From positions 62,001 through 126,000 of the forward strand of contig NAJO01000054.1 of assembly GCA_002077065.1 (NCBI GenBank): a stretch of DNA of 64,000 nt, in the 5' to 3' direction. Shown here piece by piece: positions 44,271 through 64,000 of the stretch (position 1 is the first letter of the stretch; every line of letters starts with the position of its first letter). A model generated the notes under the pieces. The model was given only the letters and a program-made list of their open reading frames with translations, made no database searches and was not told the origin of the DNA. The DNA is from Cryoendolithus antarcticus. Taxonomy: Eukaryota > Ascomycota > Dothideomycetes > Cladosporiales > Cladosporiaceae. The position numbers and the translations under genes are program-made.

Positions 44271-45262
44271 GGTGGAATAGCACTTCAATAAATCGAATTA
44301 CATGCAGCGTCGCAACCGCAGTACCAATAGAACAACATAAGGTTATATCAACTACATTTGAGCTTCTACATATCACAGTATCGTCATAGCCCAGACACCG
44401 AGGCTCTCACGTCCTTAAGTTACATGATAGGTCAGGTCGCAAGTAGATCACATCGGCAGCGGACCAGCTGCCGCAATATATTCGACTTGCCGTCCGGTGA
44501 CATCTTGAATGCATCGAGGACTCGGTACAAAGTTACATCGGACACGCTGAAGACGAGTGAAGAGTACGGCAGTGAGGCTGATTCTATGAACTCGATTACC
44601 CGACCGAGGGACACATCGGGTAGCGAGTTGCGCCATTGGTCTACTTCGCAGTAACTTAGATCCGGATGATGTTGTACTTCAGTGCTGTCAATTGCGGGGA
44701 GTGGCCGGGGTAGTTCGCCTGGCTAATAAGCGATGCTGGAAAAGTACATGCAGAGCGACCACGATGTACTCTTGTACTCCTTGTGGAAGGGAGCAGGTCT
44801 CCAGAAAACCGAAGGCAACTTGCACCGGTGTGACCCAGTACAATATTAATGCAACGAGTGATTCGCAGTAGCCGCATGCTATGCACACCAATCTCGTAGA
44901 CGTGATATCGTAATACATTCACGTGAGGCAAGTCTTTGTAGCATGGACTCAGGGAAAGAGCACTAGCACTTGAGGCCGCTCCTTCCACTTTGTCGACACA
45001 AACGCAGCAACATTACTGGCTCCGCTCTTCTCCTTCCACTAACAAACTTTTAGCGCCGGTAATGACCGCACCAATCGCTGATATTTGCACTCAAACAGAG
45101 TTTAGTGAGTAGATTCTGGGCGCGAGTCATGCGTCTTCACATGTCTCCAAAAGTTCGAGGACTCGAATATAAGACCACGATTCTTTGCCGGCGTCGCATA
45201 CACTTCTGCCTCTCCATGTCTCGTCACTTCGCAAATCGTCCCGGCCATAGCGAGTGACGAAA
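44271..45262. other. divergent intergenic region
   Basis: Between the cutinase and helicase starts. No coding signal. Confidence 0.5.
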
Positions 45263-48200
45263 ATGGTGAACAAATCGCATGCACCGCGCAGCAGCAAGAA
45301 GCCTGCTAGCAGCGCAGCAAATCTCAATGGAGAGGATACGAGCTTCATAGTCTTCGGCAACGAGAAGCCCAAGAAAGCCAGACCAGCACCGGCCGAGGAT
45401 GCTACTCTGAAGCCTAAGACCGCTGGCCCGTCCACGGATCCCACCGCCCCGGAAGTCCCCAAACCGCCCGACACACGCACCCTCATTGGCGGCCCATCGT
45501 GGACGGGCAAACTCCCCATGACGCTCTTCAACGAGCACTGCCAAAAGCAGCGCTGGGAGAAGCCCGAGTACACCAACCGCCGTACACCGAAAGGCTTCAC
45601 CGGCGGCGTGATCATCAAGTCAAAGAACGCTAAGACCCAGGAAGTCGTTGTGCTGCCGCCCATAACGCCGCCGAGGGAGTATAATGTCGAGCAGGGCGCT
45701 CAGCCTACTGCGCTGGAGGCGCGGCATTTCGCGGCGACATTCGCGCTCCATCGAGTGGGGAGTATGAAGAATATTCACATGATGCTCCCACCTCGATATC
45801 GAGATTTGTGGAAGGGCGACTTTGCGGATCTGAAGAGCGAAGCTGTGGCGCAGGGCCTGGGGTATCTCTATGAGGCTGATCCGTTTGTGGCGAAGAAGGC
45901 GCACGAGGAGGCCAAGGTCAAGAGGGAGAAGGCAAGGGCTGAGAGGGTCAAGACTGTAGAGGAGGAGAAGAAGAATGCTGTTGTGGGGTTAGATGGCGCG
46001 GTGCAGGGAAAGCATGTGTTGAGGGGATGGCAGAAGGTACCGAAGGTTGAGATGGGGGCTAGGACGAGACGGGAGGTTGAGAGATTGGTCAGGGAGGAGG
46101 GGGTGTGGAATGTACATGGTGTGCGGATTGACAAGGCTGAGGCGAAGCGGATTGTGGACGATCTTGAAGCAATCGGCTTTCGGAGAAGTCATGTTGAGGA
46201 GGCGGTGGAGATCTGCAAGGACAAGGAGGAGTGCCTCGAATGGCTTGCTATTCACTGTCCTGAGGATGACTTACCGAAGTGGATGCTGCCCGAGAACTAC
46301 TCTGCTGGTGTTAGTCTCGCTAGTGGAGACTTGAAGAGGGAGGGCAAGATCACGCGGCTGGTCACCGGGGGCTGTGCGAGGGAGGTCTGCACAGAAGTGC
46401 TGGACGCATGTCAAGGCAACGAGGCCAAGGCTGCGGAAGCGCTACAGTGGCGGCTAATGGGTTCGGATGAGGATGTCGTCGATATCGACACCCTGAGTAT
46501 GGACTCGGATGCATGGGACGAGGAGCAGGCGACACTGGCCGGTATCTATGGCAACAGATGTACAAATCACGACAGAATATGCACAATACAACTAGAGCTG
46601 CAAACGCCATCCAAGAAGCCTATCGCTTTACGTGCACGTCCACCCAGTCATGGCTACCCAAAATCAGTACCTGTGCTGTCCATCGAAGCCGATCTACCAG
46701 CATACATCAGACTCAGCATTCTCAAGCGGTGCCTCGCGCATAGTCAGGACCACTTCCTCGGCGAGCAGATGCTTTTCAGCATCGTCGACTGGCTTGAGAA
46801 CAACATTCCCTCTATCATCGAGCGACCTGGCCGCCTCAGCGAAATCGCCAGCGCGGCTTCAACCTCCGCTGAAGCTCCATCCCGGCATCCAAGACCCACG
46901 AAACTCCCGCGAAGGCATCCTCGCCCCCTCACCTGGACGCCCGACACGCTTGTCTCCCAGCGCCTCCTCCGGGACTGGACGAGCAAACAGTCGACGTCCG
47001 CCCAGCAATCTATGCTCCGCGCCCGTCAAGCCCTCCCAGCCTGGTCTCTGCAATCCGCAATCGTGGACTCAATCACAAAGAACCAAGTCACCATCATCTC
47101 CGGAGAGACTGGCTCTGGTAAATCCACGCAATCAGTGCAGTTCCTGCTCGATGACTTACTACAGCGTGGGTTCGGCGAGCAGGCGAATATCATCTGCACG
47201 CAGCCTCGTAGGATCTCCGCTTTAGGGTTGGCGGACCGTGTGGCGGATGAGAGGTGTGGCAGGGTGGGAGAGGAAATCGGTTACGCTATCCGTGGTGAGA
47301 GTAAGCAACGGCCAGGCGTGACGAAGATCTGCTTTGTGACCACTGGTGTACTGCTTCGACGACTGCAGACTTCTGGCGGCGGAGAAGACGATGTGCTCAG
47401 GAGTCTGGGGGATGTGAGTCATGTCGTGATCGATGAGGTGCACGAGCGAAGTCTGGACACGGACTTCCTACTTGTGCTGCTGAGGGATGTGCTGAAGAAG
47501 AGGAAGGATTTGAGGGTCATTCTCATGAGTGCTACGCTGGACTCGAACACGTTCGAGAAGTATTTTGCGAGTGCCAAGCTGAGTGTGGGGATGGTCGAGA
47601 TACAAGGGCGGACGCATCCAGTCACCGATGTGTATCTTGATGATATTGTCAGGGCGACTGGATTTAGTGGTGTGGCCGCGGAGGAGGACCCCGAACTCAT
47701 GGTCGATGAGGACCCTAGGAATGGCCCAAGACCTGGTCCGCAGTCTATGGGCAGTGCATTGCGAGCAGTCGGAATGCGCATCAACTATGACCTGATCGCC
47801 GCAACTGTGCAGATGATCGACAGTGAGCTGGGCAATGCAGACGGAGGCATCCTCATTTTCCTGCCAGGCGTAGCGGAGATCGACCAGACGATCCGAGCAC
47901 TCCGCCACATTCCAAACCTGCACGCTCTCCCATTACATGCTTCCCTGCAGAGCGTCGAGCAACGCCGGGTATTTCAAAAGGCGCCTCACGGCATGCGCAA
48001 AGTTGTAGCTGCGACCAACGTCGCCGAGACTTCGATCACCATCGAGGACATCGTCGCTGTGATTGACACCGGCCGAGTCAAGGAGACGAGCTTCGACCCC
48101 ACGAACAACATGATCAAGCTGGCTGAAGTGTGGGCCTCGCGCGCAGCGTGCAAGCAGCGTCGTGGACGAGCTGGTCGTGTAAGGGCCGGGAAGTGCTATA

Positions 48201-49384
48201 AGCTGTACACACGCAGCGCTGAGGCGAAGATGCAAGAACGGCCAGAACCAGAGATCAGACGAGTACCGCTCGAGCAGCTTTGTCTGTCAGTCAAAGCTAT
48301 GGGTGTTGCCGACGTGCCCGCGTTCATTGCATCGGCCCTGACACCACCAGAGAACATGGCTGTTGAGGGAGCCTTACATCTCCTGCGTCGCATGGGTGCC
48401 TTGGACGGCGTCGAGCTCACAGCCCTCGGTCGTCATCTTTCCACGATCCCCGCTGACCTCCGCTGCGGCAAGCTAATGGTGTACGGTGCCATCTTCGGCT
48501 GCCTCGAAGCAACACTTGTCATAGCCTCGATACTTACCGCACGCTCTCCCTTCGTCAGTCCGCAAGCAAAGCGTGACGAAAGCAAAGCTGCGCGAGCATC
48601 TTTCAGCCCCGGTGGCCCACAAGGCGATCTCCTCTGCGACTTGAACGCCTACACAGCCTGGTCATCCCGCCGCGCCTCAGGCGAGCCAACCAATCAGCTA
48701 CGCCGCTGGTGCGACGAGAACTTCCTCTCCCACCAGACTTTGCAAGACATCTCCACGAACCGCACTCAGTACCTCTCCTCGCTCAAAGAAGCCGGCTTCC
48801 TCTCCGCATCCTACAATCCTTTCTCCCCAACTGACAAAGCGAACGCCCAGTCAACAAACTACGCACTCCTCCGCGCTCTCATAGCCGCCTCTTTCTCCCC
48901 CCAAATTCTACGGATAGACTTCCCCAACACGAAATACGCCGCCTCGTCCTCCGGATCCGTGGCCCTAGACCCAGAGTCAAGAACGCTGAAATTCTTCTCC
49001 GAGGAGAGTGGACGAGTCTTCATCCACCCCTCCTCCACGCTCTTCACGACGCAAACCTTCCCCAACAACGCCGCGTACCTAGCGTACTTCACCAAACTCT
49101 CCACATCTAAGATCTTCGTCCGCGAGCTCACGCCAGTTGGCGTGTACGCACTGCTGATGTTCGGCGGGCCGGTGGAGATTGATGCCTTGGGTAGGGGATT
49201 GGTGGTTGATGGATGGGTAAGATTGAGGGGTTGGGCGAGGATTGGGGTGTTGGTTGGAAGACTGAGGGGGATGTTGGATGCGGTTTTGGCGAGGCGGGTG
49301 GAGAATTCGGAGGGGGATGAGAGTGGGGAGGGGGTTGTGGGGGTTGTGAGGAAACTGGTTGAGTTGGATGGGCTGGATATCTAA
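45263..49384 (+). CDS. DEVH-box (DEAH family) RNA helicase, DHX29/DHX57-like
   Basis: Single exon, 1373 residues. The N-terminal half is accessory: a basic leader, a UBA-like helical bundle near residues 293-330 (RIVDDLEAIGFRRSHVEEAV), and an RWD-like domain at about 405-520 (DEEQATLAGIYG, SILKRCLAHSQDHFLGEQML). The helicase core has motif I SGETGSGKSTQ (about 612), Ia TQPRRISA, II as DEVHERSLDTDF (about 723), III SATLD, V TNVAETSITI and VI QRRGRAGR. HA2 and OB-fold regions follow. DEVH in place of DEAH is seen in some members. DHX29-type proteins help 40S scanning on structured mRNA; DHX57 and yeast YLR419W are related. The start at 45263 is the first ATG; the frame continues upstream only as a non-ATG codon. 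Confidence 0.93.
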   Translation: MVNKSHAPRSSKKPASSAANLNGEDTSFIVFGNEKPKKARPAPAEDATLKPKTAGPSTDPTAPEVPKPPDTRTLIGGPSWTGKLPMTLFNEHCQKQRWEKPEYTNRRTPKGFTGGVIIKSKNAKTQEVVVLPPITPPREYNVEQGAQPTALEARHFAATFALHRVGSMKNIHMMLPPRYRDLWKGDFADLKSEAVAQGLGYLYEADPFVAKKAHEEAKVKREKARAERVKTVEEEKKNAVVGLDGAVQGKHVLRGWQKVPKVEMGARTRREVERLVREEGVWNVHGVRIDKAEAKRIVDDLEAIGFRRSHVEEAVEICKDKEECLEWLAIHCPEDDLPKWMLPENYSAGVSLASGDLKREGKITRLVTGGCAREVCTEVLDACQGNEAKAAEALQWRLMGSDEDVVDIDTLSMDSDAWDEEQATLAGIYGNRCTNHDRICTIQLELQTPSKKPIALRARPPSHGYPKSVPVLSIEADLPAYIRLSILKRCLAHSQDHFLGEQMLFSIVDWLENNIPSIIERPGRLSEIASAASTSAEAPSRHPRPTKLPRRHPRPLTWTPDTLVSQRLLRDWTSKQSTSAQQSMLRARQALPAWSLQSAIVDSITKNQVTIISGETGSGKSTQSVQFLLDDLLQRGFGEQANIICTQPRRISALGLADRVADERCGRVGEEIGYAIRGESKQRPGVTKICFVTTGVLLRRLQTSGGGEDDVLRSLGDVSHVVIDEVHERSLDTDFLLVLLRDVLKKRKDLRVILMSATLDSNTFEKYFASAKLSVGMVEIQGRTHPVTDVYLDDIVRATGFSGVAAEEDPELMVDEDPRNGPRPGPQSMGSALRAVGMRINYDLIAATVQMIDSELGNADGGILIFLPGVAEIDQTIRALRHIPNLHALPLHASLQSVEQRRVFQKAPHGMRKVVAATNVAETSITIEDIVAVIDTGRVKETSFDPTNNMIKLAEVWASRAACKQRRGRAGRVRAGKCYKLYTRSAEAKMQERPEPEIRRVPLEQLCLSVKAMGVADVPAFIASALTPPENMAVEGALHLLRRMGALDGVELTALGRHLSTIPADLRCGKLMVYGAIFGCLEATLVIASILTARSPFVSPQAKRDESKAARASFSPGGPQGDLLCDLNAYTAWSSRRASGEPTNQLRRWCDENFLSHQTLQDISTNRTQYLSSLKEAGFLSASYNPFSPTDKANAQSTNYALLRALIAASFSPQILRIDFPNTKYAASSSGSVALDPESRTLKFFSEESGRVFIHPSSTLFTTQTFPNNAAYLAYFTKLSTSKIFVRELTPVGVYALLMFGGPVEIDALGRGLVVDGWVRLRGWARIGVLVGRLRGMLDAVLARRVENSEGDESGEGVVGVVRKLVELDGLDI

Positions 49385-49504
49385 GACCTTAGGAAGATTC
49401 ACTAGGTCATGCAAATGTGCTATACCGTGATTGCTCGCCTCACATGTATTAGATGATGTAATGTATCGCTGCTGACACACTGTAGCTATATTGTTTAAGG
49501 AACG

Positions 49505-52500
49505 TCAATCCCAACCAGTTGGCGATGCTACTCTGAATTGTTCCCCGAAGTACCACACTGGCACATCCATAGCGGAGGGCGGACTAGATGGACCCAGCTC
49601 TTTGCGACGGCGACCTCGGAAGATCGGTGACTCCTCATCTGTGTATGCTTGTGCGTGATCGCGCAACTCATGCTGTAGATCTTCCCGCCTGTGTCCTTTC
49701 CCAAGTTCCGGAGCACCATGCACTCGTCTGAATTGGCAAGTCAAACAGTCGCACGGAGTCTCTCTCCCGAGTGTCTCTTCATCGTGCTCTCTAACCTGCT
49801 GTGACACTGTGGCATCGAGAAGTCGACGGCTTTCTTCCGTTTGAACTTCTGGCAAGAGTGAGGCTGGTGCGCCAGATACAAGGCTGGCACGCGCACGACG
49901 TCGCGTGCCTTCTGAATTCGCGCGAAAGGTAGGTTTAGCGGGGCCATAATGCTTGTTAGTGTGTTCTTTGAGGTCATAGAGTCGCCCAAACCGTTCGTTG
50001 CAGGTCTGGCACGCATATGGCTTCTCCGACGCATATGGCTTCTCTGGGCCATGTGCGTCAGAGAGGCCATATGCGTGCGAATGCCTCATAGGCGTGTATG
50101 GAAGTGACCTGGCACGCCATCTTCGCGCAAACATAATTGCCATCGCAATTACAGCGAATGATGGAGTCGGACGAGAGAGCCGGACGTTCAGCTTGCCATA
50201 TGCGTGCGAATGCCTCATGGGGGTGTATGGAAGTGACTTGGCACGCCATCTTCGCGCAAACATAATTGCCATTGCAATTACAGCGAATGATGGAGTCGGA
50301 CGCGAGAGCCGGACCTTCGGCTTGCCACTGTCATGATTGAATCTGTTCTCCACGCCATGTATGCTGTACTTGTTGCTTGAGAGGCGTTCATCTTCATCTG
50401 AACTGAGCCGTCGCCCTGCACAGCCTGCCGGCCCTTTGCGATGACGTGCCAGCGCATCACTGCGAGCAAAGCGTCTGCCGCAGTTATCACATGTATGTGG
50501 CCTTTCGCCTGTATGTAGCTTAGTATGTTTCTTCAAATCATGAAGTCGTCTAAACCGCGCATTACAAGTCTGACAGACATACGGCTTTACTTTAGCATGT
50601 GTCGATAGATGGCGATCTAGGTCGTGGTATCGCATGAAGTCTGTTGAGCAGTAAGGGCATTTGTGCCGTTCGTCTTCCACACTAGGCAATGATTGGCTGT
50701 CTCGGCTGTGTCCAGGCAGACTGGTCAGTTGCGAAGGTCCTGATTGGAATGGCGATGGCGGAGGAAGGCCAGGGTGCGTGATCGCTTCGTCGGCATGTTC
50801 AAAAGTGCCAATTTCAGTATGCTCCTCTACGAGAGGATCCAAAGGCATCACACTCTTTTTCCAGTCGTCGATGAGACTACCTGGCGGCTTGTTGAAATGC
50901 GTGAGACCCATTACGGATCTCAAGCTGTCCGATGTCAAGGTGACCACGGAAACCGACGCAAGCTCATTCGGCATTGTTGCCGTCGTTTCGGACTCTGACC
51001 CGTAGCTGGACCTCGTTGCTATGCTGTTCACGTCGTGCTCCGTGGATAAGCTGCCTCCTGCGACAGAACTATCGTCACCAAAGTCCCATGGAATGGACAT
51101 TAGTGCAAACCCCTTCTGATGGTCCTGTCCGATGTGCTCGCACACAGAGGCAAGGCGTTGGTCGAGTTCCGCTTCGGCAGGTTCATAGCGACAGAAGGGG
51201 CAGCAATCAAGCCTGAGTGGTAGTCTATGAAAGCTCATTCGGGCGATGAGTGCCGCTGCACTGTCTTCGATCAAGGGATCATGAAGATCTCGAGTGTGCT
51301 GGACGATGTCAATCTCACTGGCGGATTCATGCTTGCATACCTGGCAGACCCAAGCTATAGATGCATGTTCCGACTCAAGATGTTCAATCCACTTCGCTGA
51401 TGTCGGGTAGCTGGTCAGCGGAGTTTTGCAATGCTCCACAAAGCAAAAGTACGGGCGCAGGTCATGCATGACATGTGTTCTATAGTCTAATCAGTTTGTG
51501 CGTACAAACCTGCTCATCGAAATCTACAGACCGCCATCTGCGCACATTCTCCGCTTCTTTCAGATCTTTCACTCGCCAGCAGTAGGAGCACTCGAACACG
51601 TCCACCCCTTTGGAGACAATCGGGGTTGGCGGAAAGCTCAATCTCCCTCCAGTGATCTTGGTCGCACTGCTTCCAGCTTGTGAGATTGCAGACGGTCGAT
51701 CGGCCTGAAGTCTTACGCTACCAGCCAGGGTCGTAGCAGCGTGTACGGATGGCAAGCTCACGGGTCCGGAGCTCTCCTTAGTCGGAAGTGCGACAGCGGA
51801 GCTGCTGTCGTCGACTTGTCTAGACACTGATCTGGAGTCCAATTGCAGCTGTATCGCAGGGCGAGTCGGTAGAGCCATAACACGCTGACCATCTACTGCC
51901 CGAGCTTTGGCTCGTCGTTGGCCATACATCAATCTTCTCCAGCGTTGCTTAGTCACATCTATTACTCGACGACGAAGCCACGCGGGCGTTCCCAGTGATT
52001 CAGCTTCAGCCGTCGGCAGCAAATGATCTACCATGAAGCACACGTGATCACTGAAGCTCAAGATCATCGGGTTGCCGTCGAGATCTTTGGGATCGTAGCT
52101 GACAGATCTATCGTCGGCGCTTCGGTCACTGTGTTGGCGAATTTGCGCCGCATAGCGAAGGAGTCGACCGATGTCAGAACTGATGCGAGCCTGCAGGACT
52201 TCCTCCGTGTCTTCTTCGTCAGACGACGGAGACCTTCTCACACCGCGGCGAACGACACGCCTCGGCTCGTTCAATCGTGCTCGCTTAGTAGGTGGTTGGC
52301 TAGTACGATGTCCCCGTGTATTCGGCATAGAGTACACTGAACGCTATTAGCAGCGTTGATTCCAACGACACGCTGCTGTGACTCTTACATTGCCGCAGAT
52401 CCGCCCTCAATGCGTTCAACAACTCGGTCAGCATTTCGCGCACGTCAGGATTCTTCCTCAGGCGATAGTCAACCGACATATCACCTTCCGCAAAAATTCC

Positions 52501-52653
52501 AAGCATAGCTGCCCACACACCCATCCGCGCGGCTTCGGTCTCTGCCCATTCGACCAGCTCCGAGTTGGGCCCATCTCGTGAATATCGCAACAGACGTCTG
52601 CAGTCAGTTGCTAGCAGTGTGATCACGTCCCTGCGGTCTCCGCCCAATTCCAT
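49505..52653 (-). CDS. AcuF-like C2H2 zinc finger protein
   Basis: Exons 52653-52389, 52336-51532 and 51479-49505 give 1014 residues. The N-terminal region has the pattern of the fungal AcuF-like C2H2 family: LGIFAEGDMSVDYRLRKNPD, then YDPKDLDGNPMILSFSDHV. The third exon joins to make RRWRTHVMHDLRPYFCFVEHC, restoring the family's degenerate fingers. Central C2H2 fingers are clear at KCPYCSTDFMRYHDLDRHLS, YVCQTCNARFRRLHDLKKH and HTCDNCGRRFARSDALARH, and a fourth appears later (YACQTCNERFGRLYDLKEH). Between the third and fourth finger is a 43-residue unit in two near-identical copies. Probably a nuclear DNA-binding protein; targets unknown. The second donor (GTCTGT) is non-consensus but strongly supported by the family motif. 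Confidence 0.82.
50088..50345. repeat. 129-nt tandem duplication inside the C2H2 gene
   Basis: Two head-to-tail copies with a 129-nt period (for example GTGTATGGAAGTGAC at 50094 and 50223) differ at only a few positions. On the coding strand each encodes a 43-residue unit containing VRLSRPTPSFAVIAMAIMF and RSLPYTPMRHSHAYG. Because 129 is a multiple of three the duplication is in frame. A shorter ACGCATATGGCTTCTC repeat lies just outside, near 50020-50045. Exact outer edges are approximate. Confidence 0.85.
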
Positions 52654-52987
52654 TGTCGTCCCTTTCGCCTAGAATACATACGCTTCGACGCCGATCGCGA
52701 TCCGTTCGATACATTGACAATCCAAAGACATTTTGCTGAGTGAAGTAGTTCTAAGACGACTGTAGCACACGCCTATGTGGTATGCTACCTTATGAGCGGG
52801 TGATGACCGAGATCATTCGAAGGTCCTTTTCGTGAAGTCAGCCACCCACGTCACGTGAGGGTGGGTGCGGCTGAGAGGCGGACGATCTAACGGCGCTTCA
52901 TGGCCGGCGCGTCTGGACGTCGCAGCAAGGCTACACAGATGTCTCCGCTCTTACATGAAGCATACCTATATTGCAATATGATGTGGC
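52654..52987. other. divergent promoter of C2H2 and subtilase genes
   Basis: About 330 bp. It contains the short upstream reading frames that precede the subtilase start (see 52955-52995). Confidence 0.5.
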
Positions 52988-52995
52988 ATGACTAA
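52955..52995 (+). promoter_or_regulatory. upstream ORFs before the subtilase start
   Basis: An ATG at 52955 opens an 8-codon frame ending at TGA 52979-52981. A second ATG pair at 52978 and 52981 opens a five-codon frame that ends at TAA 52993-52995, overlapping the main ATG at 52988 in another frame. If the transcript starts upstream of 52955, ribosomes would meet these first, which usually lowers translation of the main frame. The transcript start is unknown. Confidence 0.45.
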
Positions 52996-55799
52996 ACGGA
53001 AGTTCCAAGGAGACGGCGATGGCGATGGCGATGGTACGGACCGTTCGGGCCACGTGCCTGACTGGGTGAAGTCTGAACTGAAGTCTGATCTACTGGACAA
53101 TGCTTGTCGACTCCTTCGGGAAGCTGCAGGGTATTGTAGAGTGACAAGCGATGGCTCCGTGTCGCTTCCCACGGCATCTCAGTCCAAGGATCACGGCTTC
53201 AACGCGAAACTCCGCGCTGAGCTCGATATCATAGTCAAATCCAAGGACACCATGATTGGCGAGACTCTCACCACCCAGCAGATTGATAGCGGCACTGGGC
53301 TACTGGACACACTCGAGGAAGACTGGATAGATTTGAGCGCTGACGGCATTCAAGTGGACGAGACTACCTACGAAGACGCTGAGCCGTACTTCCTACTGTC
53401 CGAACTTGTCAGCACAGAGGCTCACATCGCAAGTCCACGAAGACGCACTTGGCTCCCGGCGAGGTTGAGGGTTGATCAGCCATCATGGAAGCTCCAGAAG
53501 CGGTTACTAAGAGATCTGGGCAAACATGCAGCAGCCATTGCTGCGCCTATCGAGATGGCGCCGACTACAGAATGGGGTGGGACCAAAGCCATCTTCGAAG
53601 CTATGACTGCCGCCCATGAAGCGCTTGTGAAGCATTGGATCAGCGTCTGTCAGTGTGGACTTTGCGATCATTACGATACGAAGATCTCGTTGGGTAAGGT
53701 GTCCAATGCCCGAAGTGCCAACGTGACATGCACTGTTTACTCATCTGTATCATTCGGACCTGCCGTGTACTGGAAATCAGTAAAACTACAATGGCGCGCT
53801 GGTGGCGTACTGGAGAATCCTGTACCACGAAAGCGCAAAGTCGTGTTTCACGACGAGCTGAGTCAGTGTCCGTCGAGTCCACCCGTGAAGGTTTGTGAGC
53901 TGCTCCAGGTCGAGGCCTCAAGTGCAGTTGTGGAGATCGTGTCTGGCACACTGGCAGTGAAGTCCGACTCGGATGTCGCTAAAGCTGAGACACCAAACAC
54001 CTGCAGCCCGGCGCTCTTCTCGCATTGGACTACAGACAAATTGCCCGAGAAAATTTTGGCGTTGAAGCTACGGCAACGACTGTCTTTGGCACTCATTTTG
54101 GCGTACGCCTACCTACATCTCAGTGGCAGTGCGCTATGGCCACGACACCAGACGTCAAACGAGGTGTGGCATTACATCGATTCCCAGCACACCCCAGAAG
54201 CGACACTGCAACCTCTATTCAGTCTTACGCCTCATGCATCGGATACGAAACAGAAAGCCTTGGCTTCATTTATCAATAAGTCATCACCAAGCCTGCCTAT
54301 ACTGGGCACAATGCTGCTGGCATTGATAAGTGGGAAAAAAGTGTCTTGGGACACGTACGAAGAGCAGATCAAACTTGCCAAGGAAGAGCCATTTGCGAAG
54401 GCGTTGATTGGTGCTGTCGACGCCTGTCTCGACGCTCAAGAACTGAAACAGGATGGTGAGACCGACGCTCTCGGTGACAAAGCAAGGGAGGTGTTTCTAC
54501 AAAAGGTTGTGCTGCCTCTACAAAGCGCCCTCGAAGTTGGATTTGGCTTGACCTTCGACGCTTTGTTTGGCTTTCGTCATAATGAAGCAACAGGAGACAA
54601 GGTCAAAGCGGACTCAACGTCTCATACTCACACGAAGCATCAATATAGACACAATCCACAGCATGGCAAACCTATGCCCTCAGATATGGCACTGCACCCA
54701 AGCGATCAGTGGCTCGCAGCTGTCCAGATACAAACTCGGCCATACTTCTCTCAGCGCAATAGTCCATCGAGTCCTGTGCGAATTGCCGTTATCGACACGG
54801 GACTGAAGCTCTCTGCAGACTCGCACGCCTTGCACTACGAGCGGATCGCCGAATGTCGTAGCTGGGTGACCGCGGGAGCAACGGACCCCACATCTGCAGA
54901 CGGTCACATTTTCGCGGCCGACGAGGATGAAGATGGACACGGCACGCATATTACCTCCACCATACTTGACATCACCGCCGAAGCCGAGTCGTACATCTAT
55001 GTGGCAAGAGTGGTACGGCTTCGGGATCAAGCAGGGACTATGCAGCCGGAGACGGAGGAAGCCATCGCCAAAGTAAGTTTCTTGAATCTCTCATGCAGTG
55101 CGTAGTATTTCGGGTGGACTGACTATCCTACAGGCCATTGAGTATGCTGTCGAAACATGGGGTGTCTCGATCATCTCACTGTCGCTGGGCACGTCTCATG
55201 TAGTGTCGAGGATCGAGCGGGCAATCGAGAGCGCTCAAGCCAAGAAAGTACTGATATTCGCCTCAGCGTCGAACTTCGGCGGCAACCAAGGGCGCAGTTG
55301 GCCCGCTAAGCGTCGAGATGTCTTCTGCGTACACGGTACCGATGCCCTCGGGAATTCGTACGAGCGCAATCCGAGTGCTCTTCCCGGGGAGTCGAACTTT
55401 GCAGTGTTAGGAGTTGATGTACAGGCAGAGTGGCTACCGAACTCCAATGGCAATACGCAACTGATGCGACAGACGGGTACTTCATTTGCTACACCTATTG
55501 CAGCAGGCATCGCCGCGCTTGTCATCTCCCTAATGCGGAACTGGCAGGAGGCGTACGTGCACTGGCGAGTCGAACAAGCCCAACGACACGGTCAGCGCGG
55601 ATCCTACGAAAGCGAACGCCAATCTTACGCACATAAGTTGGCTCGACTACAGTCGGTCGGCGACATGATGCGCATCTTCATGCTCATGCACGAACCTCGC
55701 GGACTGTACCACTACATCGTGCCTGCAAAGCTCTTCGAGGCGGTACTTCCGCAAGACCGAGTCCTATTGATCAGGAAAATACTTCGCGAGCTAGACTGA
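52988..55799 (+). CDS. DUF7580-like/subtilisin (S8) fusion protease, HET-Q2-like context
   Basis: Exons 52988-55072 and 55134-55799 (GTAAGT donor, CTGAC branch site, ACAG acceptor) give 916 residues. Residues 600-850 form a subtilisin-like catalytic domain: catalytic Asp in VRIAVIDTG, His in DGHGTHITS, oxyanion Asn in FASASNFGGN and Ser in GTSFATPIAAG. No signal peptide or propeptide is seen, so the enzyme is probably intracellular. The first 560 residues resemble fungal proteins with a DUF7580-type C-terminal region (LRQRLSLALILAYAYLHLSG). Intracellular S8 domains recur in fungal NLR-like and incompatibility proteins. In Podospora the subtilase HET-Q2 cleaves and activates the gasdermin HET-Q1. 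Here a gasdermin-like gene lies tail-to-tail 16 bp away. The catalytic triad is certain; the N-terminal family name is my recognition. Confidence 0.88.
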
Positions 55800-55815
55800 A
55801 AGATGCGATTCGCGA

Positions 55816-56619
55816 CTATTCGCTGTCTTCAAAGTCTTCCACTCGAAGCACAGGCGCAAACGCCCACTCCCGCACGTCCGCCTCATCATTAAACCCGATG
55901 TTGCAATCCTCGTCGCCTGCCAGCGCCCACTTAGTCTCCATGCGTGTCTCGAACGCGCCCTCCTGCCTCTTGAAGCGGATCCGCAAAAGCTGGTAGGCCA
56001 ACAAGAACGGCTCGACCGGACTCGACCCTTGCCTCCGCTCGCATACTTGCGCCCCTTCCACGATTGGGCCAACCCTACCCGGCATTCCAACAGCCGCACC
56101 ATCAGCCGCGAGATCTACCCGCAAACCCTCGCTTCGATCCTTGACGTACTCGATAGTAGCGGCAGAAGCCGTCATGAGTCCAGTGACCAGGTACAAAGGC
56201 TTTCTGCGAAATGTGCCAGCGTACTTGCGCAGCGCCGTGCTTGCCGTGGCTTGCGCGATATAGCTTTCGTCTGGGCTAAACCATTCAACATCGAGATTCT
56301 CGGCAGTGATCTTGACCGAGTCTCTGATTGCGCGACTGCCGGAGATGCCACCATTGAGTATGGGGATGACGGAGAGATCCGCTAAAAGGCCGACACGGCC
56401 TGCGGTCTGCTCCGCAGTGTCAAGGTACCATGCCTTGTGAGCCTGCCGAGATATAGCCTCTTCTGCGACGGGGACACGGGAGGTGGAGTTCAAGGGACGT
56501 CGAGCATCGGGATACTTTGATGTCAATTCGGCTGGCAGAAGGGTACCGAGTTGAATTCCTCTACCGGGTAGGAAGCTCGTGTCCGGCAGGAGCATGAACG
56601 TAGGCTGGTATGTATTCAT
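55816..56619 (-). CDS. gasdermin-like protein (RCD-1/HET-Q1 type), candidate
   Basis: Single exon, 267 residues, close to the length of fungal gasdermin-like proteins (about 250-280). The N terminus (FMLLPDTSFLPGRGIQLGTL) and a central PLYLVTGLMTASAATIEYV strand pair fit the pore-forming domain's alternating beta pattern. The last 40 residues form an acidic tail (DEDCNIGF, VEDFEDSE) after a basic-to-polar boundary, as expected for a short inhibitory C terminus removed by proteolysis. There is no signal peptide. The gene converges on a subtilase with only 16 bp between stop codons, the arrangement known from het-Q1/het-Q2. The start at 56619 is chosen because the 42 codons upstream have no such pattern. 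Family membership rests on motif impression, length and context, not on an alignment. Confidence 0.7.
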   Translation of the reverse strand: MNTYQPTFMLLPDTSFLPGRGIQLGTLLPAELTSKYPDARRPLNSTSRVPVAEEAISRQAHKAWYLDTAEQTAGRVGLLADLSVIPILNGGISGSRAIRDSVKITAENLDVEWFSPDESYIAQATASTALRKYAGTFRRKPLYLVTGLMTASAATIEYVKDRSEGLRVDLAADGAAVGMPGRVGPIVEGAQVCERRQGSSPVEPFLLAYQLLRIRFKRQEGAFETRMETKWALAGDEDCNIGFNDEADVREWAFAPVLRVEDFEDSE

Positions 56620-57447
56620 GGCTGCTACATGTGGGCGAGGCTGCGATGGTCCACCAATTTCACATGATCGTCCTCGGCAGGCCTCATGTAGAAGCCATAG
56701 CTGCAGCCTAGCGAATGGGGCGCAGTGCTGCACAGCCACGATCAAAACCTGCCCACGCTGTTACACAAAGCACTACAATCTCTGGGATACTCCTCGTTCC
56801 AGTATCACCGCCGCGTCTAAATCCCATGGTCGCATCCTACACCGATCATCGATCTTTCGTAATGAGATCCCCACCCTGCCCAGGCCGCGAATGTAGTGAA
56901 GTCACCTTGCCTTGGCAGGGCTGCATTGCTTTACCTGCATGTGCATCACTCTAAGTCTACTACCCCACTCCCTCGTCCATCTTCAACGTCTGTGGTGACA
57001 ACAAGGTAGAAAGTTTTCTCATGATCATGTGTCCAACCGCGAAGTACCGGGCGCATGTATCACACACAACACCAAGATGACTCAACATAAGCAGGTATGG
57101 AGGTCCCACGAGGCCTCCCTTCCGTGACAAGCCGAGCTCACCGGCATGGCCTCGCTGCCCTCCGCGGCGGCCCTCGGGGCGACGGTGATGCAGTGAGGAT
57201 GTTGTGATGTGAAGGAAATAGGAGTGAGGCCAAGGTAAGGGTTTATAATCATTCATTTCATTGCCTGTGCTCTGCGCTTTACACCCCTTTTCGTCTCCCA
57301 ATCACTCTGAGAGAACAGCAGGAAGACCTACAGCACAGAAAGACTCAAGACGACTTCGCTTCAGACGTCCGAAGCTCATTTTCCGTACCAAATTGAGTTT
57401 AGAAGTCACGCGAAACCAAACGCTTACCATATCCAGCAATTCACATC
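56620..57447. other. divergent intergenic region
   Basis: Between the gasdermin-like and Pmp3-like starts. The gasdermin-like frame is open back to 56745 without similarity. A pyrimidine-rich tract lies close to the Pmp3-like gene. Confidence 0.5.
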
Positions 57448-57847
57448 ATGGTTCTCGTCCGTCACCCCTCTTCCCCACCCCCACCCCCTCCCCTCTCATC
57501 CCCAACCCCTAACCCACCCCCCTCAGGTCTCTCTCGCCGAAGGCATCCTCGCCATCTTCCTCCCTCCCCTCGCCGTGCTCCTACGCACCGGCTGTAGTCT
57601 GAACTTCCTCCTAAACATTCTCCTGACAGCCCTGGCCTGGGTCCCAGGTGTGATACACGCCTGGGTTATCATCTTGGCAGTCCCGGGGCTCAGGGAGAAG
57701 AGGAGAGAGCGCAGGAGAAGCGCTGAGAAGGAAGTGCGAGGTAGTGGGAGCTGGGAGGGGGGTAGGAGGAGTGGAAGTCGACATCGGCATCATCACCACC
57801 ACCATGATGAGTACCGCAGGAGCGTGAGCCGGCAGAGGGGCATTTAG
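57448..57847 (+). CDS. Pmp3/RCI2-type plasma membrane proteolipid with basic tail
   Basis: Exon 1 is nine bases (57448-57456, Met-Val-Leu); the intron (GTCCGT donor, CTCAG acceptor, C-rich) leads to exon 2 at 57527-57847, giving 109 residues. The Pmp3 core has two membrane helices: SLAEGILAIFLPPLAVLLRTGCS and LNFLLNILLTALAWVPGVIH. The canonical protein stops after about 55 residues; here a hydrophilic tail of about 45 residues follows, rich in Arg, Ser and Gly with a run of six histidines after a SRHRH stretch. Pmp3 proteins modulate membrane potential and salt tolerance. Long basic tails occur in some fungal members. Confidence 0.9.
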
Positions 57848-58010
57848 GAGAGAGAATGAAGGGAAGAGGGAAAGTGAGGCGGCGATGACTTTACGGCCGA
57901 TTGCATTTGCGATGGCGTTGGTAGATGGGAGAGCATGCAGATGCTTAGGGTTTAGCAGTTGGGTATGAAGGCTTGATTTACTCGATCTTTGTTGTGCTAT
58001 TGCCGTTCCA

Positions 58011-59531
58011 TCATACCCCTTCATTAGCCAGCCGATGCACAACCGGCACCGAACTCGGCGGCAAACTGCCGTACTCGCATATCACCATGCGGATGTACTC
58101 TGCGGGCGTAACATCGTACATCAGATTCAAGATCTGCAGTCCTGGTATATCTCTCCAGTCTGCCAGGGTCTTAACCTTGGCACCCTCTTCGTCGCCGTCC
58201 ATAGTGGTAGGCGAAGCCTCGGGAAGTAAGAGCTCTTCAGGCGGCGCAATCTCGTTCAGCACCACCGAGTCCAGCGCGACTTTGCCCGTGAACTTAACGC
58301 TCTCGCAGAGGACTATGACTGGGACGTCCGCGTGAGAGGCATGTAGCGCTATGCTCGCTGTGCCCACACGAGAGACGAGCCGGCCGTTGCTGAGCATTGA
58401 TCTTGCGCCTAGCAGGACCAGTGTAGCATCTTTCATCGCGTGCGCAATACCAGAGAGTGGTGTGTATTCGACTTCGATACCTCTTCGTCCAAGCGTGCGA
58501 GCAAGATTCTTGCCTTCGTAGAGCGGTCGCGAGTCCACGCATATGACCCTGAACTGCGTGCCTGCTTCATGCGCTTCGATCAGAGTCTTCTCGACAAGCG
58601 AAGACTTGGCATAAGTTAACACCACAGCACCTTGCTTGATCTGCTTCACAGCCGCAGTCGCAATAGCCCGGTCCGTCACCACGATTCGCTCCCGTAAGAA
58701 CATGTCGATACTGTCCTGCAAGTAAGCCTTCGCCTCGCCCTCATCAACACTCGGATCGATTTCCACAACAGCCTTCTTCAAAAATCGAATCCCATTCCCC
58801 ATGCCCTCGCTGATAGGCCTGCAAGCCTTGAGGAACTCGATCTGCGGACTGAGGAAATGCGTCGTCATGTGCCGTGCCAGACTCGTTCCAGTAGGCGTTG
58901 TGTAATCGGCTATGGCGGCCTTAAAGGCTAGCAGCATGGCTGCTGTGCGTGCTGTGGAGCCGCAGATGGCGTAAGTAGAGTATTGGAAGCCTAGGGCCTG
59001 GATTGCGGGGTGAATGTCTTTCGGGGTCGTAAGGAGCGTTGGGCGGGGGTGGGCCGCGTAGAGGTGGGAGAAGAGGGGAACGTCTTTGGACTCCTTTGGC
59101 TTAGATGGTCTGCTGGGTTTCGAAGCTGGTGGAAGGACGGATTGCGAAAGTCGACGGCGAGGTGGCGGGGGTTGTGTGGCTGCGGACGGGTTCCGTCGGT
59201 GCTGTGTAGGTGTGGCAGCTGGCGCTTGCTCGGGCTGTCGCTGTGGCTGTCCTCTGGATGTTTGCGCTGGCTGCTGCATCTGTGCTGCCTGTGAAGACGA
59301 CTCCACGGCAGGCTGTACTGCTCCATCGCTTGCTGTCATGCCGTTCGTGACTGGTGCAGCGGAAGGTCCAGCTCCAGCCTTCTCCGCCGCTCTCCTCGCC
59401 TGCTTCTCCTCCTTCGCCCTCTTCTTCTTCTCTGCCGGCGTCAATCCATCTTCACCTACACTCTTTGCAGGCGCCGGCTCAGCCTTCTTCTCCGGCGCCT
59501 TGCCTTTTGCTCCATTCGGTGTGTCGGCCAT
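58011..59531 (-). CDS. GCD2: translation initiation factor eIF2B subunit delta
   Basis: Single exon, 506 residues. The first 150 are low complexity and charged (PAEKKKRAKEEKQARRAAEK, then Pro/Gln/Ser-rich), as in Gcd2 proteins. The rest is the eIF2B alpha/beta/delta Rossmann-like domain: PLFSHLYAAHPRPTLLTTPK, DIHPAIQALGFQYSTYAICG, TTHFLSPQIEFLKACRPIS, VLTYAKSSLVEKTL, VICVDSRPLYEG, LLGARSMLSNGRLVSRVGTA and PVIVLCESVKF. The eIF2B complex recharges eIF2 with GTP; the delta subunit belongs to its regulatory core, which senses eIF2 phosphorylation in general amino acid control. Confidence 0.95.
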   Translation of the reverse strand: MADTPNGAKGKAPEKKAEPAPAKSVGEDGLTPAEKKKRAKEEKQARRAAEKAGAGPSAAPVTNGMTASDGAVQPAVESSSQAAQMQQPAQTSRGQPQRQPEQAPAATPTQHRRNPSAATQPPPPRRRLSQSVLPPASKPSRPSKPKESKDVPLFSHLYAAHPRPTLLTTPKDIHPAIQALGFQYSTYAICGSTARTAAMLLAFKAAIADYTTPTGTSLARHMTTHFLSPQIEFLKACRPISEGMGNGIRFLKKAVVEIDPSVDEGEAKAYLQDSIDMFLRERIVVTDRAIATAAVKQIKQGAVVLTYAKSSLVEKTLIEAHEAGTQFRVICVDSRPLYEGKNLARTLGRRGIEVEYTPLSGIAHAMKDATLVLLGARSMLSNGRLVSRVGTASIALHASHADVPVIVLCESVKFTGKVALDSVVLNEIAPPEELLLPEASPTTMDGDEEGAKVKTLADWRDIPGLQILNLMYDVTPAEYIRMVICEYGSLPPSSVPVVHRLANEGV

Positions 59532-60203
59532 GATTGCTCCTGAATTTAGAGCCCTTCCGGTTATCTATATCAAGTAGCTGCAGTTCGATCGATCACTCCC
59601 TAGACTATTCCCGAGGGCTTTCGTGTCGCTAGCGTCTCCGAACGCTGATCTCGTGCGAGAGTCCATCTTCACTTAGATCCGTCCATAATGGTTGTATTTA
59701 GTCCGGTGACTGGGGAACGTCCGATCGTGTGCGCTTGGAAGCTGTGAGACCCTGAGCTATTTCTGAGTATTTGGCAATTCCTGCAGTGAGTATGGCGATC
59801 TGATCGTAAGGAGCTGTTGTGTTTGGGCGAATATGGTATTGAATGTTGTTGCAGTTCACTGCGACTGTTGCACAAGAAATTCCGATGACTCAGTGAAGTC
59901 TGAGGCACAAACATGACTGCGAGAGCACGATATATCATTTCCCCTTAGTAGTTATATTGCACGAACTTAGACACTGTGATGACACACTACGATGAGTAAG
60001 GGTGCGTATCTGTAGGCCCAGCCATTCAGCCCTTCGTTCCGAAGATGTACAGGTAGCGTTGTCTTCGTAAGTGTTCTGTACAAGACTACATCCAAACGCT
60101 GCAGATGCTTCCCTGTCACCATGCCTGGCATGCACTCATCCCTCATAAGCCCTTGATATGCGCCCATAGCAATGCCCCTTTACGCCCATCCCCTCTCTCC
60201 TCA
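59532..60203. other. intergenic region upstream of GCD2 and 3' of GTPBP1-like gene
   Basis: No supported gene. A few frames of 60-90 codons lack motifs. Confidence 0.5.
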
Positions 60204-62219
60204 TCATACAGCTACCGGCGCACTCGGCGCCGCAACCTCAACCCCACCCTCCAGCGCAGCCCTCTCCTTCGCCGCGTCAGGATTCAGGGGCTTGTTCGGA
60301 TCATACCCCACCTCCTTCACAATACCCAGTCCCTTGGTCCTCCCCTCACGAAACAAAATTCGATCCCCAACCGCCAAATACTCCGGCCTCTGCACAAACC
60401 GAAAAGCAACCGTAGCCCGATCCCCAGTCCGGATGTACGCTCGATCAATATCGATGATAGCGCACGTCTGGCTCACAGGCCCGACATGAAGCATAGCCTG
60501 GTACTTTGTCCGGATGGTCGTAGCGTGGCTGAGGATCAGCACTTCAGCAACGAACTCGCGGTAGACTTTCGGTTGCGGGATCAGGATGTTGGGATTTGAG
60601 TCTGATTTGGCGAGCAGCATCACCATACCTTTGCGGACATCTTTCCGCCGTACACGACGCAAGGCGAAGCTAGCGGATTGGCCGGCGCTGCAGGCGGGGA
60701 CGGAGATGCGTTTTCGCTCAATGGAGCGGACTGTGGTTGTCGTGAACTGGCCCAAGGAATCAGGGCCGACCAGGACTGTATCGCCGGCATGCACGACCCC
60801 TGATTTGACGACACCGCTGACGACTGTGCCGACGAACGGGACGGAGAAGGTGTCGTTCACATGGAACTCGAATGGCGCGTCGATGTCGTATTTGCCGTGG
60901 TGCGGCAAGATGTTGAGGAACTCACGAACGAGGTCTAGCGACTCGCCGGTGACGTTCGAGACTTGGAAGACCGGGCAGATGCGCTGACTGACGAACTGTG
61001 TGGCGGTGTTGATGCAGTCTTCGCGCGACTTGATGAAGATGGGGATTTTGCGGGCGCCAGGGGATTTGAGGATTTTGGTGAGTTGCGTGACGGTCTGCGC
61101 GAGGATTTGCGGCGGACAGATGTCAATTTTCGTGATGCAGACCATGACTGGGACATTCAGGGCCAGAGCGATGCCAAGATGCTCCTTGGACATGCCGATG
61201 AGACCGTTATTGGCTGCGACCATGAGGAGACAGTAATTTGGCTCGGAGCTGAGGAGGCCGAAGACGGTGGTCCGCAAATACCGCTCGTGGCCGGCCAGAT
61301 CGGTGAAGCTGATAACTTTCGCACTTCGCTTGCCTGCGCGCTGTCAGTACTCGTTCAACATCCCCACAGCCCCTCCAGTCAACCCACCAATTTCCTCCCA
61401 GCTCAGTTTCCTCCCCGGCACTCCAGACACAACAACCTCGCCCTTAGTATCAAATCCCATGATCTCCATCCCCACCGAACTCGTCCGCCCACTCTCAACC
61501 TCATGCTTATGCCGAAACAGATTCACTCTTGCCTTCCCTCGCCCATCATCCAGGCCGCCCTTAACAAGCACCCCTAACAGCGTACTCTTCCCAGCGTCCA
61601 CATTCCCCACAACCGCTATCCGCGTCTCAATCGTGTCGTCCAGATCCTTCGGCCGCCGCCGTATCATCACCTTGCCCATGCAACCTTTCTCCCGCTTCGT
61701 CTCGTTGCCGACGTCTACTGTGCTGCCCGGGACATTCTTCGTCATGAGGATCTTCCAGTCGGCTTTCAGCACCTCGAGTAGGGTTCGTATCCGCGCGAGC
61801 GCAGCGTCCCACTCGGTCTCGCTGACGTTCTGGGAGTCGCCGCTGTCCTCGAGCCCAACGTCGAAGAGACACTCGCCATGCCCCTCGTCTAAACGTGCCT
61901 CGATCAGCGATCGTAGTTGTGCTATACTCTCGTCTTTTGTCTTTGCGTCGTCATTGAGTAGGAGATGCCGTATCCGGACCTTGGGCTTGTCGTCGCCTAG
62001 GTCGAGGGTATCGAGGATGTCTAGCTCGGCGTGCTCGTGTCTCGGCGCAGGAGCAGCGCCATTCGTGCCGTTCGAGCCATTCGACGTGGCGATACCAGGT
62101 TTTCGTAATGCTTGCTGTTGCTGCACGTAGTCGGCGAAGTCACTTAAGGCGGACTCGCCTGCCCGCCGCTCTTGCGCGGAAAGCTGGCCTTGCTTGAAGC
62201 GCTCCTGGCGGGTGGTCAT
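60204..62219 (-). CDS. GTPBP1/GTPBP2-like translational GTPase
   Basis: Exons 62219-61388 and 61333-60204 (GTGGGT donor, ACTGAC branch site, CGCAG acceptor) give 653 residues. The intron splits the G domain and its removal restores SWEEIGKRSAKVISFTDLAG. G motifs are G1 GNVDAGKS, a switch I region ending in TSSVGMEIMGFD, G3 DLAGHERYL, G4 TKID and a G5-like block near VSNVTGES. Two EF-Tu-like beta-barrel domains follow (FVGTVVSGVVKSGVV, then GDRATVAFRFV). The N-terminal 150 residues have a helical start and an acidic region. GTPBP1/2 proteins act on stalled or slow ribosomes and mRNA decay in animals; their fungal role is little studied. Confidence 0.93.
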
Positions 62220-62541
62220 ATTCAGTAGTGAGTGTCCGAGGTAGCGATGATAGTCAGAGAAGCCGCGATATTCGTAGTATCATTGTGGACGTGTGTGAGT
62301 AGGAAATGTAGATGGGCGACCGATGTTTGGGTCATGGAGATATATGAGCAAGTCACAGTAGGGGCCCCGCAATGTTACAGTCATCGATCAACCTCACAGT
62401 CATTGACAGCGGACTCATATGAAAAGTAGATCATTCTGAAACTCAGGATACTGTGTTCGGCGATTGGCGATGGATTGACATCGATCGGGACACCGCAAGA
62501 CGGTCATATGTAAAAATGGTCAACCTTCCGTGACTATTCTG
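62220..62541. other. intergenic region
   Basis: Upstream of the GTPBP1-like gene and 3' flank of the glyoxalase II gene. Nothing recognised. Confidence 0.5.
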
Positions 62542-63872
62542 CTACATCGAGTTCTTCGCCTCCCGGAGCGCAGCCATCACATCTACTCGTCCAGTCTTGC
62601 CGGTGAACTTTTGTACTGCTGGATCCTGCTCATGGTCAGTGATGCAACTCACACGATCTCCACACTTCGGATTCGTTCACTTACATCCAGTCGCATGAAC
62701 ACATTGTGCTTCTAAGCGAATTGTCAGCGAGTCTCGACATATCAGACGACCGTCCATCGTACCTTCTCGTCACCAATCGTGAACTTTCCCTGCGTCTGCT
62801 TGTTTGCGTCGGCGAACGCCTCAAGCTTCTTGATAGAATCTGACTGATCGACCTTAACGCCGAACTTAACGTTGCCTTTAGTGTACTCGTGTCCAGGCTG
62901 TGAGGCATGTCAGTCGTCTGCACTCAGCCATACGATAGAGGCGTGCCATACATAGACTTTCGTGTCATCGGGCAAAGTACCCAAAGTCTTGTTGAGCGCA
63001 GTGTCCATCTCCTCGGCTTTGCCTTCGAAGAACCGACCACAGCCTACATCGAGATCAGTACGAGCGCCTTACGTTGGGATTTACAATCCGACCTACCTCC
63101 AATGAACAGCGTATCGCCGGTGAACACAGCTTTGTCGTTACCATCCTCAAACAGGAAACATATGCTGTCTTGTGTGTGACAAGGTGTGTGCAAAGCCTTG
63201 ACCTTAATACCCTCACCAATTGTGAAGGTCTCGCCGTGTGCCGGGGTCTTGGTGACCTTGGTGCAGTCCTTACCGCCTATGATGGGGAGAGGGTAGGACT
63301 TGAGCTACACAGGATCAAGGTCAGAGAACGCCTCCAGAATGGAAGGTAGCGGGACGTACAATCTCGACATTGCCGCCAGCGTGATCGTGATGGCTAATTA
63401 CATAGAGTCAGACTCATTTTTAGCGTGAGACGTTCCTGTCGGCTTACTGGTGGGTGTTGATGATCTTCGTCAACTTGATACCGCGGTCTGTAGCCTTCTT
63501 GAGGTGTGGTAATACTCTGTACGAGTGTCAGATGGCTGCTGGATGTTGCAATTGACTTAGACGGACTCTGATGGGTTGGCAGGATCAATAATCACGGCCT
63601 CCTTGGTCTTCTCATCTGTAACGAGGTAGGCGTAGTTGTTGCCACTTCCCTCCCCTGGGATTGATCAGATGCTGTGACACAAATACGATCGGCAATCAGG
63701 GCATACACATGGGGATTGATTCGATATGCATCTTGCGAATTGACTTGGACTGAGCGAGCTCGGGATTAGTATGGAAGAGAACGAAGTAACCCAGGAGGGC
63801 AACGCCTACCGCGAATAGGGTTGGTGTGGCAGGACGGGACAGAACACTCTTAGCTGTACGAAGCAAGCTCAT
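62542..63872 (-). CDS. GLO2: hydroxyacylglutathione hydrolase (glyoxalase II)
   Basis: Nine exons: 63872-63707, 63654-63567, 63516-63448, 63393-63360, 63304-63097, 63043-62952, 62897-62763, 62711-62685 and 62625-62542, giving 300 residues in frame. The metallo-beta-lactamase core is clear after splicing: [18 protein letters not shown], the metal-binding [13 protein letters not shown] split by intron 3, [28 protein letters not shown] split by intron 5, and YPGHEYT. The C-terminal helical domain ends with [13 protein letters not shown]. The enzyme hydrolyses S-lactoylglutathione to lactate in methylglyoxal detoxification. The first 47 residues form an extra leader with a hydrophobic segment ([16 protein letters not shown]) that could be a mitochondrial signal-anchor; an internal ATG at 63731 would give the usual cytosolic form. 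Confidence 0.95.
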
Positions 63873-64000
63873 GAGTACTATGGTCACGGGCACTCAGAAG
63901 ACGATTGAGACTCTTCCACATAAGAGAGGCATTGAAGTCGCGGACTTGCGTCATGGCGGTTCCTGCTTACCTAACGGCTCATTCAAGGCACTATACCGAC

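Follow-up and report, generated by a model that had tools for sequence, protein, structure and literature searches.

Does a gasdermin-like gene that lies tail-to-tail with a subtilase gene in Cryoendolithus antarcticus form a regulated-cell-death module with it, and what would control such a module? The two genes were found in a 64,000-nucleotide stretch of DNA (hereafter the window), which corresponds to positions 62001-126000 of contig C100 in a 47-Mb genome. The minus-strand gene (55816-56619) encodes a 267-residue protein with profile and fold likeness to the fungal gasdermins RCD-1 and HET-Q1, the plus-strand gene (52988-55799) encodes a 916-residue protease that combines a DUF7580 region with a Peptidase S8 domain, and the two stop codons are separated by only 16 bp (55800-55815). 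The pair very likely represents a two-gene cell-death module of the fungal gasdermin/HET-Q2-like protease kind, in which the protease probably switches on the gasdermin. The original prediction, made from the window alone, had described the same tail-to-tail arrangement and spacing, and its coordinates were confirmed.

The gasdermin and the protease

A profile built from 23 relatives of the window gasdermin matched the solved structures of RCD-1/HET-Q1 (8jyz_A, E 6.6e-10; 8jyz_B, 2.1e-9; 9uv9_A, 7.7e-8), and the single window sequence used as profile-search query gave no match. The predicted structure was gasdermin-like in a Foldseek structural search, with RCD-1 being both the best profile match and the closest solved fold. 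Judged by profile and model, the protein qualifies as a fungal gasdermin with a predicted gasdermin fold, as the original prediction had proposed on condition of a related structure. WD40 matches of the same profile were rejected, as their scores added up from many stretches of at most 34 residues along repeat proteins, and no single stretch was significant.

The protease gene is made up of exon 1 (52988-55072) and exon 2 (55134-55799), split by a GT-AG intron (55073-55133) that falls inside the S8-coding part, and its product is identical to the public C. antarcticus protein B0A48_16583 (916 aa, 100% identity over 100%). The Peptidase S8 domain (PF00082, E 7.9e-23; residues 597-836, encoded by 54776-55556) retains the subtilase motifs D603-T-G, G-H651-G-T-H and G-T-S812, which locates the Asp-His-Ser triad that had been reported as intact. 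The hydrophilic N-terminus (MTKRKFQGDGDG...) showed no apparent secretion signal when judged by eye without a predictor, in line with the earlier reading. Upstream of the S8 domain, PF24476 (DUF7580) matched residues 358-516 (54059-54535) at E 7.3e-7 with 29.6 bits, just above the cut-off of 27, which bears out the DUF7580-like part predicted for the N-terminal region, though the match is partial (profile positions 143-317 of 319). A Pfam scan of the protease to E 1 returned only these two domains plus two weak unrelated matches; an NLR (nucleotide-binding leucine-rich repeat protein) with an N-terminal protease was rejected, as no nucleotide-binding domain was detected in that scan.

Conservation of the gene pair

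The pairing of the gasdermin with an S8 protease is conserved. A second tail-to-tail pair of DUF7580-S8 protease and gasdermin genes, with ~15 bp between the stops, is located on contig C139 (~1021327-1024945), where identity to the window copy amounts to 72% for the gasdermin, 70% for protease exon 1 and 85% for exon 2. This was the only other genome match of the window gasdermin at E <= 0.001, and two distant gasdermins used as queries returned the same two loci, a third row from one of them being left out (E 0.19, internal stop). The genome holds at least nine DUF7580 places and at least 24 S8 match rows, and among these the two domains are combined only at the window and C139 loci (three of the 24 S8 rows). 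Because the arrangement recurs on C139, the pairing is more than chance.

In Oleoguttula sp. CCFEE 5521, protease and gasdermin carry consecutive locus tags twice, as LTR95_010022/010023, where both genes have a longest contig of 10978 bases, and as LTR95_016980/016981, where it is 4113 bases in both cases. The conservation of the pair in relatives, on which the original prediction had made its case depend, was thus found both within the genome and outside it. The proposal of a single cell-death module is supported, as an inference, by the gasdermin-like structure and the conserved pairing, and the sensor role that it gave to the N-terminal half of the protease is one that this region may have.

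Relatives of the protease and the DUF7580 region

Querying a protein database with the protease gave nine proteins at E <= 0.001 among the best 7988 candidates scored, eight of which are annotated with both DUF7580 and S8. The proteins from Friedmanniomyces endolithicus, Lophiostoma macrostomum and Daldinia bambusicola share the two domains and a similar length (919, 936 and 935 aa, respectively, vs 916) at 24-33% identity, and the Daldinia protein matches DUF7580 at E 1.2e-42. In two close relatives the DUF7580 match fell under the cut-off (25.0 and 26.7 bits). A further Oleoguttula protein, LTR95_005846 (1186 aa), aligns at 65% over 22% of the query, with the N-terminal sequence only; it has neither a DUF7580 nor an S8 match in the annotation and is either a fusion or a gene-model error.

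As to the nature of DUF7580, its best PDB profile match is a plant leucine-rich repeat kinase at a weak E of 0.21, and comparison with 12 kinases of the genome by hhalign gave 0.8%, or 9.4% once the sequence L016 (G000:C90:313710-314291) was included as a bridge. L016 itself has a DUF7580 match below cut-off and resembles the catalytic loop of kinases (94% by hhalign across 27 columns), and may possibly link DUF7580 to kinases.

A candidate cleavage site before the acidic tail

Among the 23 aligned relatives, the last conserved core element of the gasdermin comprises residues 205-217, and in the variable stretch beyond it only an island at about 228-237 is conserved. In the window this island (E228-E237, 55909-55938, minus strand) contains W231-A232-L233-A234 and leads into an acidic C-terminal tail (residues 235-267, 55819-55917, minus strand) of 33 residues with 12 D+E and 2 K+R. 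A232 and L233 are invariant in all 23 sequences; at position 231, 22 of them have W and one has F, and at position 234 F occurs 18 times, A four times (the window's clade) and W once. The tail after the island is 28-46 residues long and acidic throughout the alignment. A published account gives F238 as the presumed HET-Q1 cut, with removal of 40 residues (PMC10989679); by position and composition the W-A-L-A island is a candidate counterpart of F238. W-A-L-A is best described as a putative cleavage site, of the kind that the original prediction had suggested looking for before the acidic tail, and the tail may be inhibitory.

A hyperdivergent block between homeologous contigs

Contig C139 is collinear with window positions 44974-64000, with 85% identity in the two main flanking stretches. 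Between them, 500-base windows drop to 47-79% identity inside a block (49386-57447) that holds the protease gene, the gasdermin gene and a C2H2 zinc-finger gene, and whose boundaries are sharp. Noncoding identity is 38-56% in the block, with 62.5% in the 16-base gap that separates the stops, vs 73% and 81% in two noncoding stretches of the flanks, and synonymous divergence (dS, NG86 method) is 0.98-1.84 in five block open reading frames (ORFs) vs 0.48-0.75 in five flanking ones. In the protease, identity is ~85% for each of DUF7580 and S8, 63% for residues 185-350 and 45% for the linker 521-596. In pairwise comparison the window gasdermin is the outlier, with 72-73% identity to four others, which share 86-93% among themselves.

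As a control, dS was calculated for 11 pairs of reciprocal loci from other parts of the genome, leaving out L029 and L037, which lack a reciprocal partner, and several fragments. Seven of the eight S8 pairs fell at 0.38-0.90 and one (L031/L032) at 1.78, whereas the DUF7580 pairs gave 0.49 (L008/L009), 1.51 (L012/L013) and saturation (L010/L015, proportion of synonymous differences 0.75), the latter two adjoining ORFs of ordinary dS (0.61-0.62). Together with the window pair, three of the four homeologous DUF7580 pairs examined are hyperdivergent. Since other control pairs are hyperdivergent too, the block is unusual but has counterparts in the genome. The dS estimates are rough and close to saturation, the control is small, and each lineage is represented by one genome.

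Several further features were observed at these contigs and loci. The zinc-finger gene (49508-52668, minus strand; Pfam zf-C2H2) has dS of 0.98 and 1.6 for two ORFs and contains two 129-base tandem copies (50066-50327) with 94% matches. Collinearity stops at window position 44974, a further 40 kb of C139 having no match to window 1-44973, and this position is a breakpoint between the homeologous contigs. The paired contigs suggest a duplicated or hybrid genome. The hyperdivergent DUF7580 genes of L010/L015 (contigs C125/C128) and L012/L013 (C84/C24) have no S8 match, and L031/L032 (C73/C94) is a strongly diverged subtilase pair unrelated to the module.

Proposed mechanism and alternatives

In the proposed mechanism, the ~33-residue tail would keep the gasdermin inactive, and the large N-terminal half, in which a helical region is joined to DUF7580, would hold the protease off while sensing a trigger, which may be damage, a mycovirus or a non-self partner met through hyphal fusion. 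The active protease would then cut the gasdermin at W-A-L-A, near residue 233/234, and the freed core would form plasma-membrane pores, leading to cell death. Several results weigh against this scheme: the Pfam scan of the gasdermin was blank, its model is only moderate (predicted local distance difference test 57, predicted template modelling score 0.60), the first 30 Foldseek alignments have high root-mean-square deviations (8.7-16.8 A), the predicted structure of the protease N-terminal half was too poor for fold comparison, and the P1-like position 234 is A in the window's clade where most relatives have F. Moreover, the two genes found in Rachicladosporium sp. CCFEE 5018 have tags that are not consecutive (B0A51_15971 for the protease, B0A51_07144 for the gasdermin), though with that database clustered at 90% an adjacent pair may exist there. 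That the genes are chance neighbours with no functional connection is scarcely credible and was rejected, since the tail-to-tail pairing recurs in two genomes and comparable pairs are known from across the fungi. Activation without cleavage by the neighbour, as for RCD-1, would have two divergent gasdermins or strain alleles co-assemble and leave the protease with another substrate. RCD-1, the best structural and profile match, does work by two alleles, and two gasdermins 72% alike coexist in this genome, but the conserved protease pairing and the conserved motif before the acidic tail point to proteolysis and make this route improbable.

For the divergent block, balancing selection, introgression and replacement are all compatible with the data. 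The chances are about even that the module is as proposed while the divergence of the block arose when one homeologue was introgressed or replaced, or through relaxed or fast neutral evolution, and plays no part in allorecognition. The low ratios of nonsynonymous to synonymous divergence between window and C139 (0.09 for the gasdermin, 0.12 for the protease) fit this explanation, as do hyperdivergence at other loci, including the unrelated L031/L032, and a comparison built on single genomes; the sharp boundaries around just these genes and the same pattern in two of three other DUF7580 pairs beside ordinary neighbours speak against it. A bolder and rather doubtful extension of the protease-gasdermin module is that the ~8-kb block is a het-type incompatibility locus whose haplotypes predate the subgenome split, so that a duplicated or hybrid Antarctic fungus carries both, and with each of them a separate gasdermin and DUF7580-gated protease. 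On this view DUF7580 would represent a kinase-like recognition module that has degenerated, and more widely a class of self/non-self sensor in fungi, an idea that draws on the hyperdivergence of three of the four homeologous DUF7580 pairs.

Relation to known systems and implications

The analogy drawn in the original prediction with HET-Q1/HET-Q2 of Podospora anserina holds. HET-Q1 was recovered by profile, each system has an S8 protease and a gasdermin whose C-terminal tail is short, and the window protease resembles HET-Q2-like (Q2L) proteases in having the S8 domain with the catalytic triad and a gene that adjoins the gasdermin gene. In contrast to het-Q1 and het-Q2, which are idiomorphs at one locus, gasdermin and protease are present side by side at both the window and C139 loci, and HET-Q2 has 388 aa, whereas the window protease has 916 aa with its DUF7580 half. 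RCD-1 of Neurospora crassa differs in working by two alleles without cleavage, the window gasdermin being paired with a protease.

Gasdermin-S8 pairing is already well documented, and the window pair belongs to that known kind. According to sections of two reviews (PMC10197012, PMC12881547), ~1900 fungal gasdermins occur in 400 genomes, ~80% of their genes are clustered with a protease gene and ~63% with an S8 gene, and 18 protease architectures cover about one-third of ~1500 sequences. The fGSDM-Q2L two-gene clusters described in reviews citing Clave et al. 2022 likewise join a gasdermin to an adjacent multidomain S8 protease, thought to act as effector and sensor, but the sensor parts in those sections are mostly ANK, TPR, WD40 or NLR, and DUF7580 is not named there. 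DUF7580 was not found in the literature searched, whose scope did not extend to the original survey (Clave et al. 2022), which may include the architecture unnamed, and no title among the search listings concerned a DUF7580-S8-gasdermin combination.

According to a 2025 review, how the activating proteases of fungal gasdermins are regulated is still to be uncovered (PMC12881547). What adds interest to the window pair is its DUF7580 architecture, together with the hyperdivergent block between the homeologues. The pair offers a conserved DUF7580 protease architecture as a candidate controller of a gasdermin-activating protease and a candidate cleavage motif common to the 23 aligned relatives, and the two strongly diverged versions of the module in one genome make specificity and cross-activation between versions directly testable.
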